The position numbers were made by a program, and so were the translations under genes. The notes under the pieces were generated by a model that was not told the origin of the DNA, ran no database searches, and saw only the letters and a list, made by a program, of their open reading frames with translations. DNA of 31,662 nt from a virus, in IMG/VR virus record IMGVR_UViG_3300035698_015428, positions 1 to 31,662 of that record; one strand, 5' to 3'. Positions 24,989 through 30,947 of the stretch are shown piece by piece. Numbering within the stretch: position 1 is the first letter of the stretch; every line of letters begins with the position of its first letter.

Positions 24989-25579
24989 ATGAAAACATGT
25001 CCCACCTGCCAAAAAGTTGTTACTAGATATGGAGCTAAGTATTGCTCTAGATCCTGTTATAGTTTGTTCCATGAAAGAAGAGTTACTTTGAGTTGCAAGG
25101 AATGCAGCGTGGTTTTTACTCAACGACCTTCCGATATATCCCGAAGTAAAAATAAAAGAAGGACCTATTGCACAATGAAGTGCTTTAAAAAGTCCTGCGA
25201 AACATCTCCTGGAAAAGAACAAATTATTTGCCCTATTTGTAAAATTGAATTTACTGCAAAAAAGTCTAAGCAAAGAAAATTTTGCTCTAGAGAATGTGTT
25301 AAAAATTCTTATAAATCTGGTAGGATGCATGACATTAAAAACCCTAACTATAGAAAAGGGTCTAGAGTTTATAGGGCAAGAGCTTTTGCTCATTACCTTA
25401 ACGAGTGTTTTGTTTGTAAAACGATAGAAAAGAAACTTTACGTACATCATATTAACCCTTCCCATGAAGTCAATAATGTTGAAAATCTTCGTATTCTTTG
25501 TGCTAGTTGTCATGTAAGAATTCATAATGGGGCATTACCCCCAGGATTATTAGATATCACTTCTTCGCTAGACGATTGA
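24989..25579 (+). CDS. HNH homing-type endonuclease with three zinc fingers (196 aa)
   Basis: 196 residues on the strand opposite to the virion operon. Three Cys4 treble-clef fingers come first: C4/C7/C19/C23, C36/C39/C61/C65 and C81/C84/C99/C103. The HNH nuclease domain follows, with C140/C143, the H153-H154 pair, N162-N163, C171/C174 and H179. Freestanding HNH enzymes of this kind cut near their own site in related phages and spread by repair. The last 58 bases overlap the end of the portal gene, coded on the other strand. No good ribosome binding site is seen before ATG 24989. The position between portal and head genes looks like a mobile insertion. Confidence 0.88.
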   Translation: MKTCPTCQKVVTRYGAKYCSRSCYSLFHERRVTLSCKECSVVFTQRPSDISRSKNKRRTYCTMKCFKKSCETSPGKEQIICPICKIEFTAKKSKQRKFCSRECVKNSYKSGRMHDIKNPNYRKGSRVYRARAFAHYLNECFVCKTIEKKLYVHHINPSHEVNNVENLRILCASCHVRIHNGALPPGLLDITSSLDD

Positions 25580-27669
25580 TCTACTTGTGTTCCTGGTGAT
25601 AAAGCACCAGACATAAGGCTACCAAGTTCCTGACCTTTAGAAGAAATAATTAAATCTTCTTCGCGTATTTCTTCTTCTTTTACTTCAGAGGCAGCTTCCA
25701 TACCTTTGATAATTGATAAATACTTCACTAGACTTTGGTCGTCCATCTCAGCCAATTCTTTCATAGCCTTAACTCTATCTAATGCAGCTGAAGCTCTGTC
25801 ATCAACGGCTCTAGCAGTTCTTTCTGTCTCAAGAGAAGTGTTGGCGAAGGCTCTAGTAAACCTCTCTTTTGCCCCAGCCATTTTCTCTATTGATGACGAT
25901 TTAGTATTTTCTATTTGGCTCTTAACTGCTTCCAACTGAACTTCTTGCATCATCTGTTCTTGCTGTTGCTGAGCTTGCTGAGCTTGCTGTTGCACTTGCT
26001 GATTTTCTTCCATTTCCTTAATAAGGGTAGACTTACCTTGCATAGGAGCATTTGCCACAATCATCTGTGGGGTAATAGGACTAACGCCTGCTCCACCTGA
26101 TAGTGTGTACACATCGATAAGTTGCTTATAATATACTTGCCTTTGAGTGTCTGTTAATGGACCTTCTTGAATGCTTATGTCGTACTTAATAAAATCTTTG
26201 GAATAGAATTGTTCTGTAGGCTTTCTCCCTAGAATTCTTTCTACCTTTTCCGGTGTCCATGTCTGGATAAGCTTTAGGACTTTTTTAGAAAGATGCTTCT
26301 GAGCGTAACGTAAATTATCAAATACACCCTGTAGGTTAGTAATTGCTGCTCCCTGGCGAAGCATCATCATTACCCCTGACTCATTCCCAGACTCAGGCAC
26401 TCCAAATGCTGCATCATTTACCCCTAGAATCTCACTCATTCCTTTAGCGTATACTTCTTGTAGCTGAAACATAGATGGAGGTATCTGCCCTACTGGTATC
26501 TTCTCTATAGCACCAGGCTTGGCATTTCTATCTCTCCAGATAACTTTTCCCTGACCTGTTTGAAATAATGAGCGTGGGTTAATAACAGATTCTTCATCAG
26601 CTATCCATCCAGAGTTTATCTGCGACTCTACTAAATCTGTCATCTGGCTGAGACGTCTGTTAGATTCTTTTTGTGGATCAACCATACAACGCGTTAAAGA
26701 CTGTAGCTTAAGTTCCCACAGCTCACATTCAGGCTCAAACTGACCAACAAAAGGTACAAATGGATATTCATCTAAACCAAACTGATCGACGTCTGTTTTC
26801 ATATACGTATCGTTTAATATTATATGGCATTCTATCGATTTCTTTTGTTTATCCACTTTTTTGAGTTGTGGATAATTCTCCAGCATATATTTAAGAGCGT
26901 CTTTTGGACCATCCCACTCCATATAGTCGCCTGTCTCAGTGTCTACTAGCATAGGAACCTTATTCCACACTTGCTTGTAGTATTCATTATAAGCTAAATA
27001 ATCTTGACCATCTGGTTGCTTTTGGTAAGGAAGCCATGTAAACTTGTCATCTCTTGACCATCCTGTATGGTATAAATCCCAGACTTTATCTTCCATTCCT
27101 GGTAATAACGATGCAGCTTGTTCTGGGCTAACATACTTACGCCTAATGACATAACCACAATCTTCAAAGTCTAATCGAGTAAAGTATGGATCAGTTATAA
27201 ATCCTGAATACGGCTCTCTACCAAATTTAATATCACCGTTAACAGGATCGTCGCGGTAGTCCATATATACTGTGCATAAATTCCATCCTGTTTTAATGGC
27301 TCCTGAGAAGCTATCTGAAATGTACTTATACCCGTCAGCGGCTTGCATAACGTACGTTAAAAGATCTGACAGGTCATCTGCCCCTTGTTGATCTTGTTCT
27401 TGCTGAGGCATTACTATAGAGCTTAGACGGTGAGATCTTTGGTAACCATCAATCATGTTGATGTTCTTACGTATTAAGTTAAATACCCAAGCATTTCTAC
27501 CTTCTTCAAATAGTTTAGTTTTTTCTCTCTGGTCCCACTGATCTCCCAGGAACTGCCTGAGGTCAATATCCGCTAAAGGGTAAAACGGATTCCAGGCTGA
27601 ATACGCAGATGTGTATCTGTCGTTGTACTCATTAACTATATTTTCATTAGAATTTTCTGTATTTATCAC
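25522..27669 (-). CDS. Portal protein, P22-type (about 715 aa)
   Basis: About 715 residues, the size of P22-type portals, which form the dodecameric ring through which DNA enters. Features: RYTSAYSAWNPFYPLADIDL and RQFLGDQWDQREKTKLFEEG at the N-terminus, NMIDGYQRSHR, the crown and stem region with FGVPESGNESGVMMMLRQGA and NLRYAQKHLSKKVLKLIQTW. A glutamine-rich coil (QQVQQQAQQAQQQQEQMMQE) lies at about 580-605, followed by a charged barrel-like end. Start chosen at GTG 27669 because AAGGTG lies 6 bases upstream; GTG 27678 is within that ribosome site. The start region is part of an 11-bp antisense pairing in its own leader (27671-27800). The 3' end overlaps the HNH gene at 24989. Confidence 0.9.
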   Translation of the reverse strand: MINTENSNENIVNEYNDRYTSAYSAWNPFYPLADIDLRQFLGDQWDQREKTKLFEEGRNAWVFNLIRKNINMIDGYQRSHRLSSIVMPQQEQDQQGADDLSDLLTYVMQAADGYKYISDSFSGAIKTGWNLCTVYMDYRDDPVNGDIKFGREPYSGFITDPYFTRLDFEDCGYVIRRKYVSPEQAASLLPGMEDKVWDLYHTGWSRDDKFTWLPYQKQPDGQDYLAYNEYYKQVWNKVPMLVDTETGDYMEWDGPKDALKYMLENYPQLKKVDKQKKSIECHIILNDTYMKTDVDQFGLDEYPFVPFVGQFEPECELWELKLQSLTRCMVDPQKESNRRLSQMTDLVESQINSGWIADEESVINPRSLFQTGQGKVIWRDRNAKPGAIEKIPVGQIPPSMFQLQEVYAKGMSEILGVNDAAFGVPESGNESGVMMMLRQGAAITNLQGVFDNLRYAQKHLSKKVLKLIQTWTPEKVERILGRKPTEQFYSKDFIKYDISIQEGPLTDTQRQVYYKQLIDVYTLSGGAGVSPITPQMIVANAPMQGKSTLIKEMEENQQVQQQAQQAQQQQEQMMQEVQLEAVKSQIENTKSSSIEKMAGAKERFTRAFANTSLETERTARAVDDRASAALDRVKAMKELAEMDDQSLVKYLSIIKGMEAASEVKEEEIREEDLIISSKGQELGSLMSGALSPGTQVDQSSSEEVISNNPGGNAPL

Positions 27670-27670
27670 A

Positions 27671-27800
27671 ACCCGCACCTTAAATTAGTTATACTCACAT
27701 TTCTGTTAGCATTTCCTTCCTATAAAGGTGCGGGTCGTTAAGTATAGGCCTAACACGGGGGATCAATCCCTACCCGCAAAATTGTTACCTTTCGATAACT
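27671..27800 (-). ncRNA. Structured portal leader, candidate riboswitch-like translational switch
   Basis: Minus-strand order: a hairpin GTTATC-GAAA-GGTAAC (27799-27784) with a GNRA loop, then a three-way junction. P1 pairs TGCGGGT (27778-27772) with ACCCGCA (27735-27729). P2 pairs GGGA with TCCC around TTGA (27770-27759). P3 pairs GTTAGG with CTTAAC around CCTATA (27754-27737). The 3' strand of P1, extended as ACCCGCACCTT (27735-27725), pairs perfectly over 11 bases with AAGGTGCGGGT (27681-27671), which contains the portal ribosome binding site. P1 and the site-blocking helix exclude each other. The ligand or trigger is unknown. A 5-codon ORF lies in the loop. Confidence 0.6.
27695..27712 (-). 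CDS. Five-codon ORF in the portal leader
   Basis: GGAAGG lies 2 bases before ATG 27712, which reads M-L-T-E-M then TGA (27695). It sits in the 43-base loop of the alternative helix that would hide the portal ribosome site. Ribosomes here could open the helix. It may be chance: the frame is tiny and the spacing is short. Confidence 0.25.
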   Translation of the reverse strand: MLTEM

Positions 27801-28616: not shown

Positions 28617-30947
28617 TTAGCGAAGGAACATACGCTCATAGTCTTCGGCGTCTTTTTCTGTCATTCGTTTTCCACCTGATTTAAAAAAGTGGGTAAACAG
28701 AGCATATCTTACAGAATCCATACAATTCAAAGTTAAAATGTTATTAACAAAATAACACTGACAGTCTTTCACATGTATATTATATACTTTTTGTTTCTCT
28801 ACAGAATTTAGCCGAACAGGAAGATGAGCAGAACTTTCTTTTTGCATAATTGAACTCTTTAAAGATTTCTCTGCAATTTTTACATTGGTACAAAGAGAAT
28901 TTTTTAGGAACTGGGTTACATTTCCAGAACATCGTTCTTCCACATGATTTTGAGCATGTAGTGGATTTACGGTATTTATTTGTTGAGTATTGTCTATTAC
29001 AGAATTCACATATTCGATACTCATTGTCAATGTTATTGTCTCTTCTCCACTTACTTTTACATTTATTTGAACAAAATTTGGTGCTTGACTGTTTTCTTGT
29101 GAGATACTCGGAGGAACACTGCACGCATTTAATTTTCCTTTCGGGATACTTGAATGATTTATTTCCATGCTCTCTATGCCAAGCCCTACCTTCTTCGCTG
29201 GCATGCCATTTTTTAGTAAGAGGTCTGATGTTATCGAAATGTTTTCGTTTAGACTCTTTTTGTTCTTTCGTAAGAAGTTTGTTATGGATTCTAACGTGCT
29301 CTTTTGGAGTGAGCAGACATAAGTTACTAATTTCATTGTTGAGGGGATTGCAGTCGACGTGATGTATATGCATTCCTTTGGGAATTTTCCCATGGTTATG
29401 TTTCCAGATTTCTCTGTGAAAACTTTCATATCCTTTTCTTTTATCTGCACAAGACGGTGTAAAATACCTTCTACTTGTGGTAGATTTGGCATGTATGTAT
29501 CTACGATATGTGATTCCGTTAAAAACGATTTCTTCTTTTGACATTGATTATCCTCTTCCAACATTAGAATAATGTCCGAACATAGCATATCTTTAGACTC
29601 AATCCAACCTCTATTTGCCGTATAAAACTTATGCGAAGATGTACATGTTATAAGTTTCCCAAATATATTATACGTTTGCACTTCTTCATCATGTACGAAT
29701 TTATGAAGGATTTTTTTATACCCTATGGGAGTAAGAACCTCATCACCTATATTTATGCACTCTATAGATACATTACCTTTTCTTGTCATAACTAAAGATC
29801 CAGCAGCAAAACAGTGGTCATGTTTCTTTAGAGGCTTATCAACACCTCTTTCAGAAGCTTTAGCATCCCATAGGTATGTGGAAAACTCTTTAATGGTGTT
29901 TACACAGTTCATGCATACTTTGAATGTACCATTTGTCATTAACATAGACACATATCTAATCCCCGAAAGGACATCATTGTCACCATCAGAGAAGTTAGTA
30001 ATGCCATTTCTTATCAACTCTTGCTTAAACGAAGCCGCTGAAGGATCCAGATAAATATTCTTAACATAATAACCATCCATAAAATCTATTAAATCTAACG
30101 TATAATCGTAATCTGACTTCTGCTTTTGCTCTTTTCTTGAGTCATAGTAATACTCTTTTTCTAACCACATATTGGGGTAGGCAGATGGATTATAACCTAT
30201 TAACGAAAAACAACAAGGGTTAGTTGTACCGTAGTCGACACCAATAATATAGTAGTTAGCTGTGGCATCTGGTTGTTGGATAACATGCACTTCTTCATCA
30301 AAGAAATCGTACACAGCACCCTCAGCAAGCACCCACTTGCCTTCTATGAACCTCTTATGCCATAACCCTTTATACTCTGCTGAAAGGTCGTGAATATATT
30401 TTTCAGATAGCGACGGATTATCCCGTATACTAAACTGGAAACTTTTAATATTAAGGACGTCAGTCCTATCAAGGAAATCGCGACGAAGCCAATGAAAAGG
30501 AGAATCAGGATTTGTAGAAGCAAAAAGACATGCATTAGGAATAGAGAGACGAGATAAAAGCATTTTAAAGAAATTTTCAGGAATAAGGGTTGCTTCGTCA
30601 ATAAGCGCGCCAGCAAATTCAGAACCCCTGATTTTAGTTTCGGCTCTGTCATCGTTAGCTCCTATGATAAACATTGTTCTGTTATATAAATATGCTTCAC
30701 CCTTACCAGCTCTGTATACTAAGGCGTCTCCAATAAGCTGCTGAAGAGGCATAATGATGTTGCGCTTAATAGTCTTATCAGTACGTCCACATACCACAAG
30801 AGGACCCGCAGGGCCATTAGCACAGAAGTCTATCCATCTAAGCAGGCATACAAATGATTTACCCGAACGCACAGCACCTTCAAGAATGTTGATACGTGCA
30901 TCAGAGTTTAAGAATGCATCTTGTTGCTTTTCACTTAGCCCTTTCAA
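28617..30947 (-). CDS. terL: Large terminase with intein in the nuclease domain (776 aa precursor)
   Basis: The packaging motor ATPase and nuclease. The N-terminal ATPase has Walker A GAVRSGKS (24-31), Walker B ALIDEA with D117-E118, and the coupling motif FASTNP (142-147). The C-terminal RNase-H-like nuclease has D238 (IIGVDYGT), D301 (YLDPSAAS) and D744 (CMDSVRYA). Residues 379-741 are an intein inserted between KKHDH and CMDSVRYA; removing it leaves 413 residues and restores the usual DHCMDSVRYA motif. Start is TTG 30947, with AAGGGG about 9 bases upstream, 6 bases after the stop of the small gene at 30954. The third catalytic aspartate lies three residues from the splice junction, so splicing probably governs nuclease activity. 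Confidence 0.93.
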   Translation of the reverse strand: MKGLSEKQQDAFLNSDARINILEGAVRSGKSFVCLLRWIDFCANGPAGPLVVCGRTDKTIKRNIIMPLQQLIGDALVYRAGKGEAYLYNRTMFIIGANDDRAETKIRGSEFAGALIDEATLIPENFFKMLLSRLSIPNACLFASTNPDSPFHWLRRDFLDRTDVLNIKSFQFSIRDNPSLSEKYIHDLSAEYKGLWHKRFIEGKWVLAEGAVYDFFDEEVHVIQQPDATANYYIIGVDYGTTNPCCFSLIGYNPSAYPNMWLEKEYYYDSRKEQKQKSDYDYTLDLIDFMDGYYVKNIYLDPSAASFKQELIRNGITNFSDGDNDVLSGIRYVSMLMTNGTFKVCMNCVNTIKEFSTYLWDAKASERGVDKPLKKHDHCFAAGSLVMTRKGNVSIECINIGDEVLTPIGYKKILHKFVHDEEVQTYNIFGKLITCTSSHKFYTANRGWIESKDMLCSDIILMLEEDNQCQKKKSFLTESHIVDTYMPNLPQVEGILHRLVQIKEKDMKVFTEKSGNITMGKFPKECIYITSTAIPSTMKLVTYVCSLQKSTLESITNFLRKNKKSLNENISITSDLLLKNGMPAKKVGLGIESMEINHSSIPKGKLNACSVPPSISQENSQAPNFVQINVKVSGEETITLTMSIEYVNSVIDNTQQINTVNPLHAQNHVEERCSGNVTQFLKNSLCTNVKIAEKSLKSSIMQKESSAHLPVRLNSVEKQKVYNIHVKDCQCYFVNNILTLNCMDSVRYALFTHFFKSGGKRMTEKDAEDYERMFLR
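28725..29813 (-). other. Intein in the large terminase, with an alternate-frame nuclease gene inside
   Basis: 363 residues (379-741 of the precursor). Block A starts at C379 (CFAAGSLVMTRKGNVSIECI, with GDEVLT). Block B has T436-x-x-H439 (TCTSSHKFYT). Block F is KVYNIHVKDCQCYFVNN and block G is ILTLN741, followed by C742 as the +1 nucleophile. The segment between B and F, about 468-715, has low-complexity composition (many Ser, Thr, Asn and Lys) and no endonuclease motif in this frame, because the same DNA carries the HNH gene in another frame. Unusual residues: Q730 and L740 replace the histidines usual in blocks F and G. Confidence 0.85.
28780..29544 (-). CDS. Complete HNH endonuclease gene nested out of frame inside the intein (254 aa)
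   Basis: 254 residues, same strand as terL but in the -1 frame, entirely within the intein. It has its own AGAGGA site 6 bases before ATG 29544 and its own TAA. Order: an N-terminal domain (EIVFNGITYRRYIHAK), the HNH core with H43-REIW, IPKGMHIHHVDCNPLNN (H61-H62, N69-N70), N74 and E82-H83, a linker (KKWHASEEGRAWHREHG) and three Cys4 fingers (C140/C143/C158/C162, C179/C182/C197/C201, C221/C224/C239/C243). C65 replaces the usual Gly. This is the layout of freestanding phage HNH homing enzymes. Its target is probably the intein-free terL site of relatives. Confidence 0.9.
   Translation of the reverse strand: MSKEEIVFNGITYRRYIHAKSTTSRRYFTPSCADKRKGYESFHREIWKHNHGKIPKGMHIHHVDCNPLNNEISNLCLLTPKEHVRIHNKLLTKEQKESKRKHFDNIRPLTKKWHASEEGRAWHREHGNKSFKYPERKIKCVQCSSEYLTRKQSSTKFCSNKCKSKWRRDNNIDNEYRICEFCNRQYSTNKYRKSTTCSKSCGRTMFWKCNPVPKKFSLYQCKNCREIFKEFNYAKRKFCSSSCSAKFCRETKSI

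Follow-up and report, generated by a model that had tools for sequence, protein, structure and literature searches.

The closest described overlap of the kind reported here is the ShiLan insertion, a hidden HNH domain encoded out of frame in mycobacteriophage DNA methylases, for which the authors report no splicing domain (PMC11855218). The locus that we analyzed lies in IMGVR_UViG_3300035698_015428, a metagenomic IMG/VR virus record of which 31,662 nt (henceforth the window) were studied, and consists of a terL gene, encoding the terminase large subunit (TerL), that is interrupted by a Hint intein, the DNA of which in turn contains a complete HNH endonuclease gene in a different frame. As in the ShiLan case, a zinc-finger HNH is encoded out of frame within a phage gene, the host frame is open across it, and the distribution is disjunct (PMC11855218). 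However, the methylase product retains the insertion, whereas the HNH gene in the window sits inside an intein whose two Hint halves flank it; the kind of element described here also has Shine–Dalgarno sites, more than 100 counted loci, and stop-avoidance statistics.

So-called fractured genes, reportedly described by Dassa et al. in 2009, are said to be split inteins with a freestanding endonuclease between the halves, and the enzyme is said to belong to a different family from the HNH_3 protein with zinc fingers that is encoded in the window. Twenty-seven relatives of the window locus as well as the cultured phages CL2 and BL3 share this layout, with an Int-N open reading frame (ORF), an HNH gene or its remnant, and an Int-C ORF, whereas the window intein is one continuous ORF. 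Fractured genes are cited in PMC10448857, a paper that also treats collaborative homing, in which a freestanding homing endonuclease gene lies beside an intron (PMC10448857). Freestanding relatives of our HNH gene resemble the latter in their position, tens to a few hundred bp away from a terL that is intact and bears the intein target; in the window, by contrast, the splicing element is a protein intein and physically overlaps the endonuclease gene. For overlapping frames in actinobacteriophages, a passage in PMC11855218 cites a Gosselin 2025 preprint on inteins with "non-canonical architecture" and Gorbalenya 1998, "Non-canonical inteins"; these works may already describe the same kind of element. 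The element reported here, common in phage terL, combines an intein and an HNH gene that is out of frame and has its own initiation site. The features of the locus are listed below (a slash marks a splice junction; pLDDT is the confidence score of the AlphaFold models).

28617..30947, minus strand: terL ORF, TerL precursor with intein, 776 aa, TTG start
29814..30947, minus strand: N-extein of TerL, C-terminal end ...KKHDH; empty-site relatives run straight on into CxDSxRY
28725..29813, minus strand: intein, 363 codons, Cys1 to Asn363 (Cys379 to Asn741 of the terL ORF), next residue Cys
29547..29813, minus strand: Int-N half of the Hint domain, residues 1–89, pLDDT about 94–98 over residues 1–80
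28725..28808, minus strand: Int-C half, blocks F and G, approximately residues 336–363, VYNIHV...LTLN/C, pLDDT about 95 for the final 24 residues
28620..28724, minus strand: C-extein of TerL, CMDSVRYALF... (nuclease motif)
28780..29544, minus strand: nested HNH endonuclease gene, 254 aa, ATG to TAA, -1 frame relative to the intein
29552..29557, minus strand: Shine–Dalgarno-like AAGAGG, 7 nt upstream of the HNH ATG
29290..29421, minus strand: HNH core, PF13392, HNH residues 42–85
29059..29127, minus strand: Cys4 finger 1, C140/143/158/162
28942..29010, minus strand: Cys4 finger 2, C179/182/197/201
28816..28884, minus strand: Cys4 finger 3, C221/224/239/243, present in only some relatives

Profile searches matched the terL ORF to TIGR01547 (E value 7e-41) and Terminase_6N (E value 1e-9), and the intein was recovered at coordinates identical to those of the original prediction, a reading of the DNA alone, between the H and the C of the conserved TerL nuclease motif DH/CxDSxRY. 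C1, T58 and H61 of block B (T58-x-x-H61), and N363 are invariant across 37 aligned inteins, and the C-terminal junction is N/C or N/S in 123 of 124 cases. In structure comparisons the Hint part of the model aligned with solved inteins over about 120 residues (Z 16–17), and gp41-1 is the best solved sequence match of the intein profile. By its splice-site residues, the block B TxxH motif, and the Hint fold, the element is an intein that would be expected to splice. No Rfam model matched the window at gathering scores, and a group I intron is unneeded as an explanation because the terL frame runs through the insertion without a stop and intein motifs are present. A scan of eight loci with non-nested HNH genes returned only a tRNA and an int-alpA RNA, both in one Patescibacteria contig (L139), where they adjoin a second, weaker HNH homolog (L139:6049-6690). 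PHROG includes a terL family, phrog_30251, whose alignment to the intein frame extends through the HNH overlap (window 28900-29830); therefore, the reference library already contains such intein regions labeled "terminase."

The nested gene carries what had been read from it, namely a ribosome-binding site, ATG, and TAA of its own, an HNH core, and three Cys4 fingers, and it lies exactly where an endonuclease domain in the frame of the intein would sit. Its product matches PF13392 (HNH_3, E value 2e-15) and phrog_15471 (E value 3e-39); three Cys4 sets were counted in it by direct reading of the sequence, compared with two in most relatives. The AlphaFold model has a mean pLDDT of 90, and its nearest solved fold is the homing enzyme I-HmuI, a modest match (Z 7.2 over 76 residues); a sequence search for solved homologs gave none at an E value of 0.01. 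The HNH motif and DNA-binding zinc fingers are features of homing endonucleases, and the enzyme is predicted to cleave the empty site and to home. Among relatives, Shine–Dalgarno pairing is stronger at HNH starts than at other ATGs (p 1.6e-6). The claim of a composite element is upheld by splicing residues that are conserved in relatives together with an HNH gene that has its own start. In a bifunctional intein the endonuclease is in the frame of the intein, whereas here it is in the -1 frame, and an in-frame HNH was found in 0 of 77 intein-anchored loci in a search biased to window-like inteins.

Metagenomic records such as the window can raise the suspicion that assembly or sequencing indels displaced what is really a usual in-frame intein nuclease into another frame. 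We sorted approximately 300 loci by separate Int-N and Int-C profiles and found 130 distinct loci in which Int-N to Int-C form one ORF, and the HNH gene bears the same frame relation to the intein in all 130. Nested HNH genes possess start and stop codons of their own, the in-frame version is missing as stated above, and the cultured phages Highwayman and TJE1, which are not part of the 130-locus count, carry nested, unannotated HNH genes, which refutes an indel origin; we give it practically no credence.

The original prediction had held an intein frame open through all of the HNH gene by chance to be very unlikely. The frame has indeed no stops across 28780-29544; however, when the window HNH gene was synonymously redrawn with terL codon usage, 4.7 intein-frame stops were expected and 0.4% of the draws were fully open, so that chance is probably an unlikely explanation for this single gene, yet the gene alone, with its 4–5 expected stops (P 0.004), is not decisive. 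The idea that the HNH codon pattern happens to leave the frame nearly stop-free gains something from the intrinsic composition of the frames: stop density when unconstrained is 2.5–5 per 100 codons in the HNH-nesting frame (+1) and 11–14 in the other frame (+2), which fits the shared frame preference of the nested HNH genes. It is the comparative data from relatives, not the single gene, that decide against chance. In a search of viral contigs with HNH alone, the majority of the 58 loci recovered have the same frame fully open. The 47 nested HNH genes that remained after removal of duplicates, drawn from that search and from the loci of other searches to that point, contain 0 intein-frame stops, compared with 158 expected from their own codon usage or 253 from terL usage, whereas in 11 homologs that lack an enclosing open intein the equivalent frame contains 117 stops compared with 110 expected, each non-nested gene carrying 6–20. 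Twenty-seven further loci have both intein halves and a broken frame with 2–18 stops each, and no locus with both halves has exactly one stop, giving a bimodal distribution. Moreover, locus L244, the terL intein of which lies at L244:1297-3399, nests its HNH gene in the other, stop-rich (+2) frame with 0 stops in 152 codons, an overlap that is likely of independent origin. The open intein frame is under selection against stops, and the chance explanation is about as implausible as sequencing error.

The prediction had gone further and proposed that the DNA is under double coding constraint. Freedom from stops is selected, but the amino acids of the intein frame are unconstrained and predicted to be disordered. 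In the AlphaFold model of the intein frame, pLDDT is about 95 for residues 1–80 and the last 24 residues, and mostly below 50 between them, across the HNH overlap. Third positions of the HNH gene are second positions of the intein, and at 35–70% identity nested and non-nested genes differ there equally within a few percent; third positions of nested HNH genes are thus as free as those of non-nested ones, and amino-acid constraint in the intein frame was ruled out over this range. The codon-position comparison hence spoke against double constraint. At 70–97% identity nested pairs look slower at HNH third positions, a comparison of just 9 with 5 pairs. Because HNH third positions vary freely and the model is disordered, we read the middle of the intein frame as a probable disordered linker that is merely held open, with no other constraint detectable. 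Two natural dissections agree with a constraint on stops only: in L077 the intein frame has 0 stops in 161 codons, the HNH frame is dead with 20 stops, and the alignment to the window intein still extends through the middle, and in L004 the HNH gene is interrupted by one nonsense codon in an open intein.

Relatives with and without the nested gene were all recovered, including empty terL sites, mini-inteins, and nested loci. Most of 80 terL relatives (54–78% identity) are uninterrupted at this site and some have the intein, and L106 and L107 carry a mini-intein without HNH. On the terL tree, inteins occur in a scattered pattern (12 changes compared with 13.5 with shuffled labels), and the terL genes of L062 and L067, approximately 90% identical on either side, are distinguished by a clean in-frame insertion of 966 bp that separates the His codon from TGT. 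The set covers phages of Acinetobacter, Lactobacillus, Brochothrix, and Tetrasphaera and many metagenomic viruses; metagenomic loci predominate, and the searches favor similar sequences. Free HNH genes are mostly downstream of terL, and some lie between terL and the portal gene; we attribute intein hidden Markov model matches of 16–37 bits in such loci to terL sequence carried over into the model, since terL is intact in most of them. Since a packaging function has been proposed for HNH genes at that position in Skunavirus (PMC12724721), the nested HNH protein could be a packaging cofactor, comparable to the HK97-type or GVE2-like HNH proteins near terL, with nesting serving coexpression. Yet its presence is patchy even among terL genes approximately 90% identical, close terL relatives lack an HNH gene at this place, L077, L106, and L004 have lost it or carry it in broken form, and the nearest fold, I-HmuI, is a homing enzyme despite the modest score; a packaging role in place of homing is therefore improbable.

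The original prediction had stated that it would be contradicted by relatives whose intein frame is interrupted along the HNH gene. Such relatives exist, namely the 27 loci above (for example, L031, L051, and L139), but do not refute it because they appear to be split inteins, in which Int-N and Int-C each have an ORF to themselves: the terL plus Int-N ORF ends near the HNH start, and Int-C begins inside the HNH gene. In Lactobacillus phage CL2 (L303) the annotated large terminase ends in Int-N, and an unannotated frame with Int-C and the TerL C-terminus starts within the HNH gene; in Brochothrix phage BL3 (L305) gp2 and gp3, annotated as terminase and gp3, are TerL plus Int-N and Int-C plus the TerL C-terminus, with an HNH remnant between them. 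As to history, entry of a freestanding HNH gene into a mini-intein, as originally proposed, is plausible in that both mini-inteins and freestanding terL-adjacent HNH genes exist. Non-nested HNH genes carry 6–20 stops in the relevant frame, and direct insertion would therefore break terL unless the intein were split; the HNH gene may instead have come to lie first between Int-N and Int-C ORFs, with stops cleared and the ORFs re-fused later. In the HNH tree (189 rows; nine changes between nested and other states), one clan intermixes split, free, and nested loci, as such a history would have it, but the other is almost purely nested and deep (94 nested, L244, and 1 free). The trees are quick and unrooted and the HNH tree is weakly supported inside; the direction of transitions is therefore not inferable. 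We consider the split-first history a possibility, though less likely than not; it is compatible with the explanation of present function that we prefer.

That explanation, to which we assign a probability of about 0.86, holds that phage terL harbors a composite mobile element made up of a Hint intein and an out-of-frame, separately started HNH homing gene. The intein would be translated within TerL and then splice itself out, and mRNA of its interior would carry the -1 frame HNH gene, to be translated from its own Shine–Dalgarno site and ATG. The enzyme would cut uninvaded terL sites, repair of which would copy the intein together with the HNH gene, and the element is probably mobilized in this way. 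Selection for functional TerL would keep stops out of the intein frame over the HNH gene, the product there being a disordered linker between Int-N and Int-C. Where the frame is not needed, because the intein is split into two ORFs, presumably trans-splicing, or because the HNH gene is free beside terL, stops would rise to the neutral level; after death of the HNH gene the intein frame could remain open. Several points weigh against this explanation. Splicing, HNH translation, the cleavage site, and homing are all inferred from sequence. Shine–Dalgarno strength is modest (-5 kcal/mol or below in 49% of HNH starts compared with 19% of control ATGs). The class of contiguous loci is stop-free by definition, and therefore the test rests on bimodality and on the loci found via HNH alone. 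Finally, HNH and Hint divergence correlate moderately (Mantel r 0.44), and exchange between elements is therefore possible.

Some relatives carry additional inteins. A 1472-aa terL ORF (L048:417-4832) apparently has three, the last with a nested HNH gene, and a 1327-aa terL ORF (L026:879-4859) has two, one at the ATPase P-loop (..GGNA/C...HHN/SGKTS); its middle looks no less unusual than the dual-coding ones, and a further gene may be concealed out of frame there. The window itself contains another HNH-like gene (24989..25579, plus strand), which has Cys pairs resembling those of zinc fingers and lies on the strand opposite to its neighbors and overlapping the end of a 718-aa ORF (25522..27678) that is likely the portal gene.

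Because the same arrangement is present in more than 100 other phage sequences, it represents a genuine, stable type of composite element and not an oddity of a single genome, and it is possibly linked to the origin of split inteins. Whether there is a large, mostly unannotated class of dual-coding inteins with an overprinted nuclease, continuous with split inteins and free HNH genes, in which the overlap is an evolutionary bridge where split inteins arise or get repaired, is in our judgment evenly balanced. The finding accounts for peculiar intein stretches in annotated TerL proteins and is a warning that nucleases lie unannotated within the terL genes of databases. It also offers an unusually clean model of overlapping genes, with one frame constrained in sequence and the other against stops only. 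The natural series of empty, mini, nested, decayed, split, and freestanding states makes the origin of split inteins and collaborative homing testable, and these inteins are in all likelihood mobilized by an enzyme from a different frame of their own gene.
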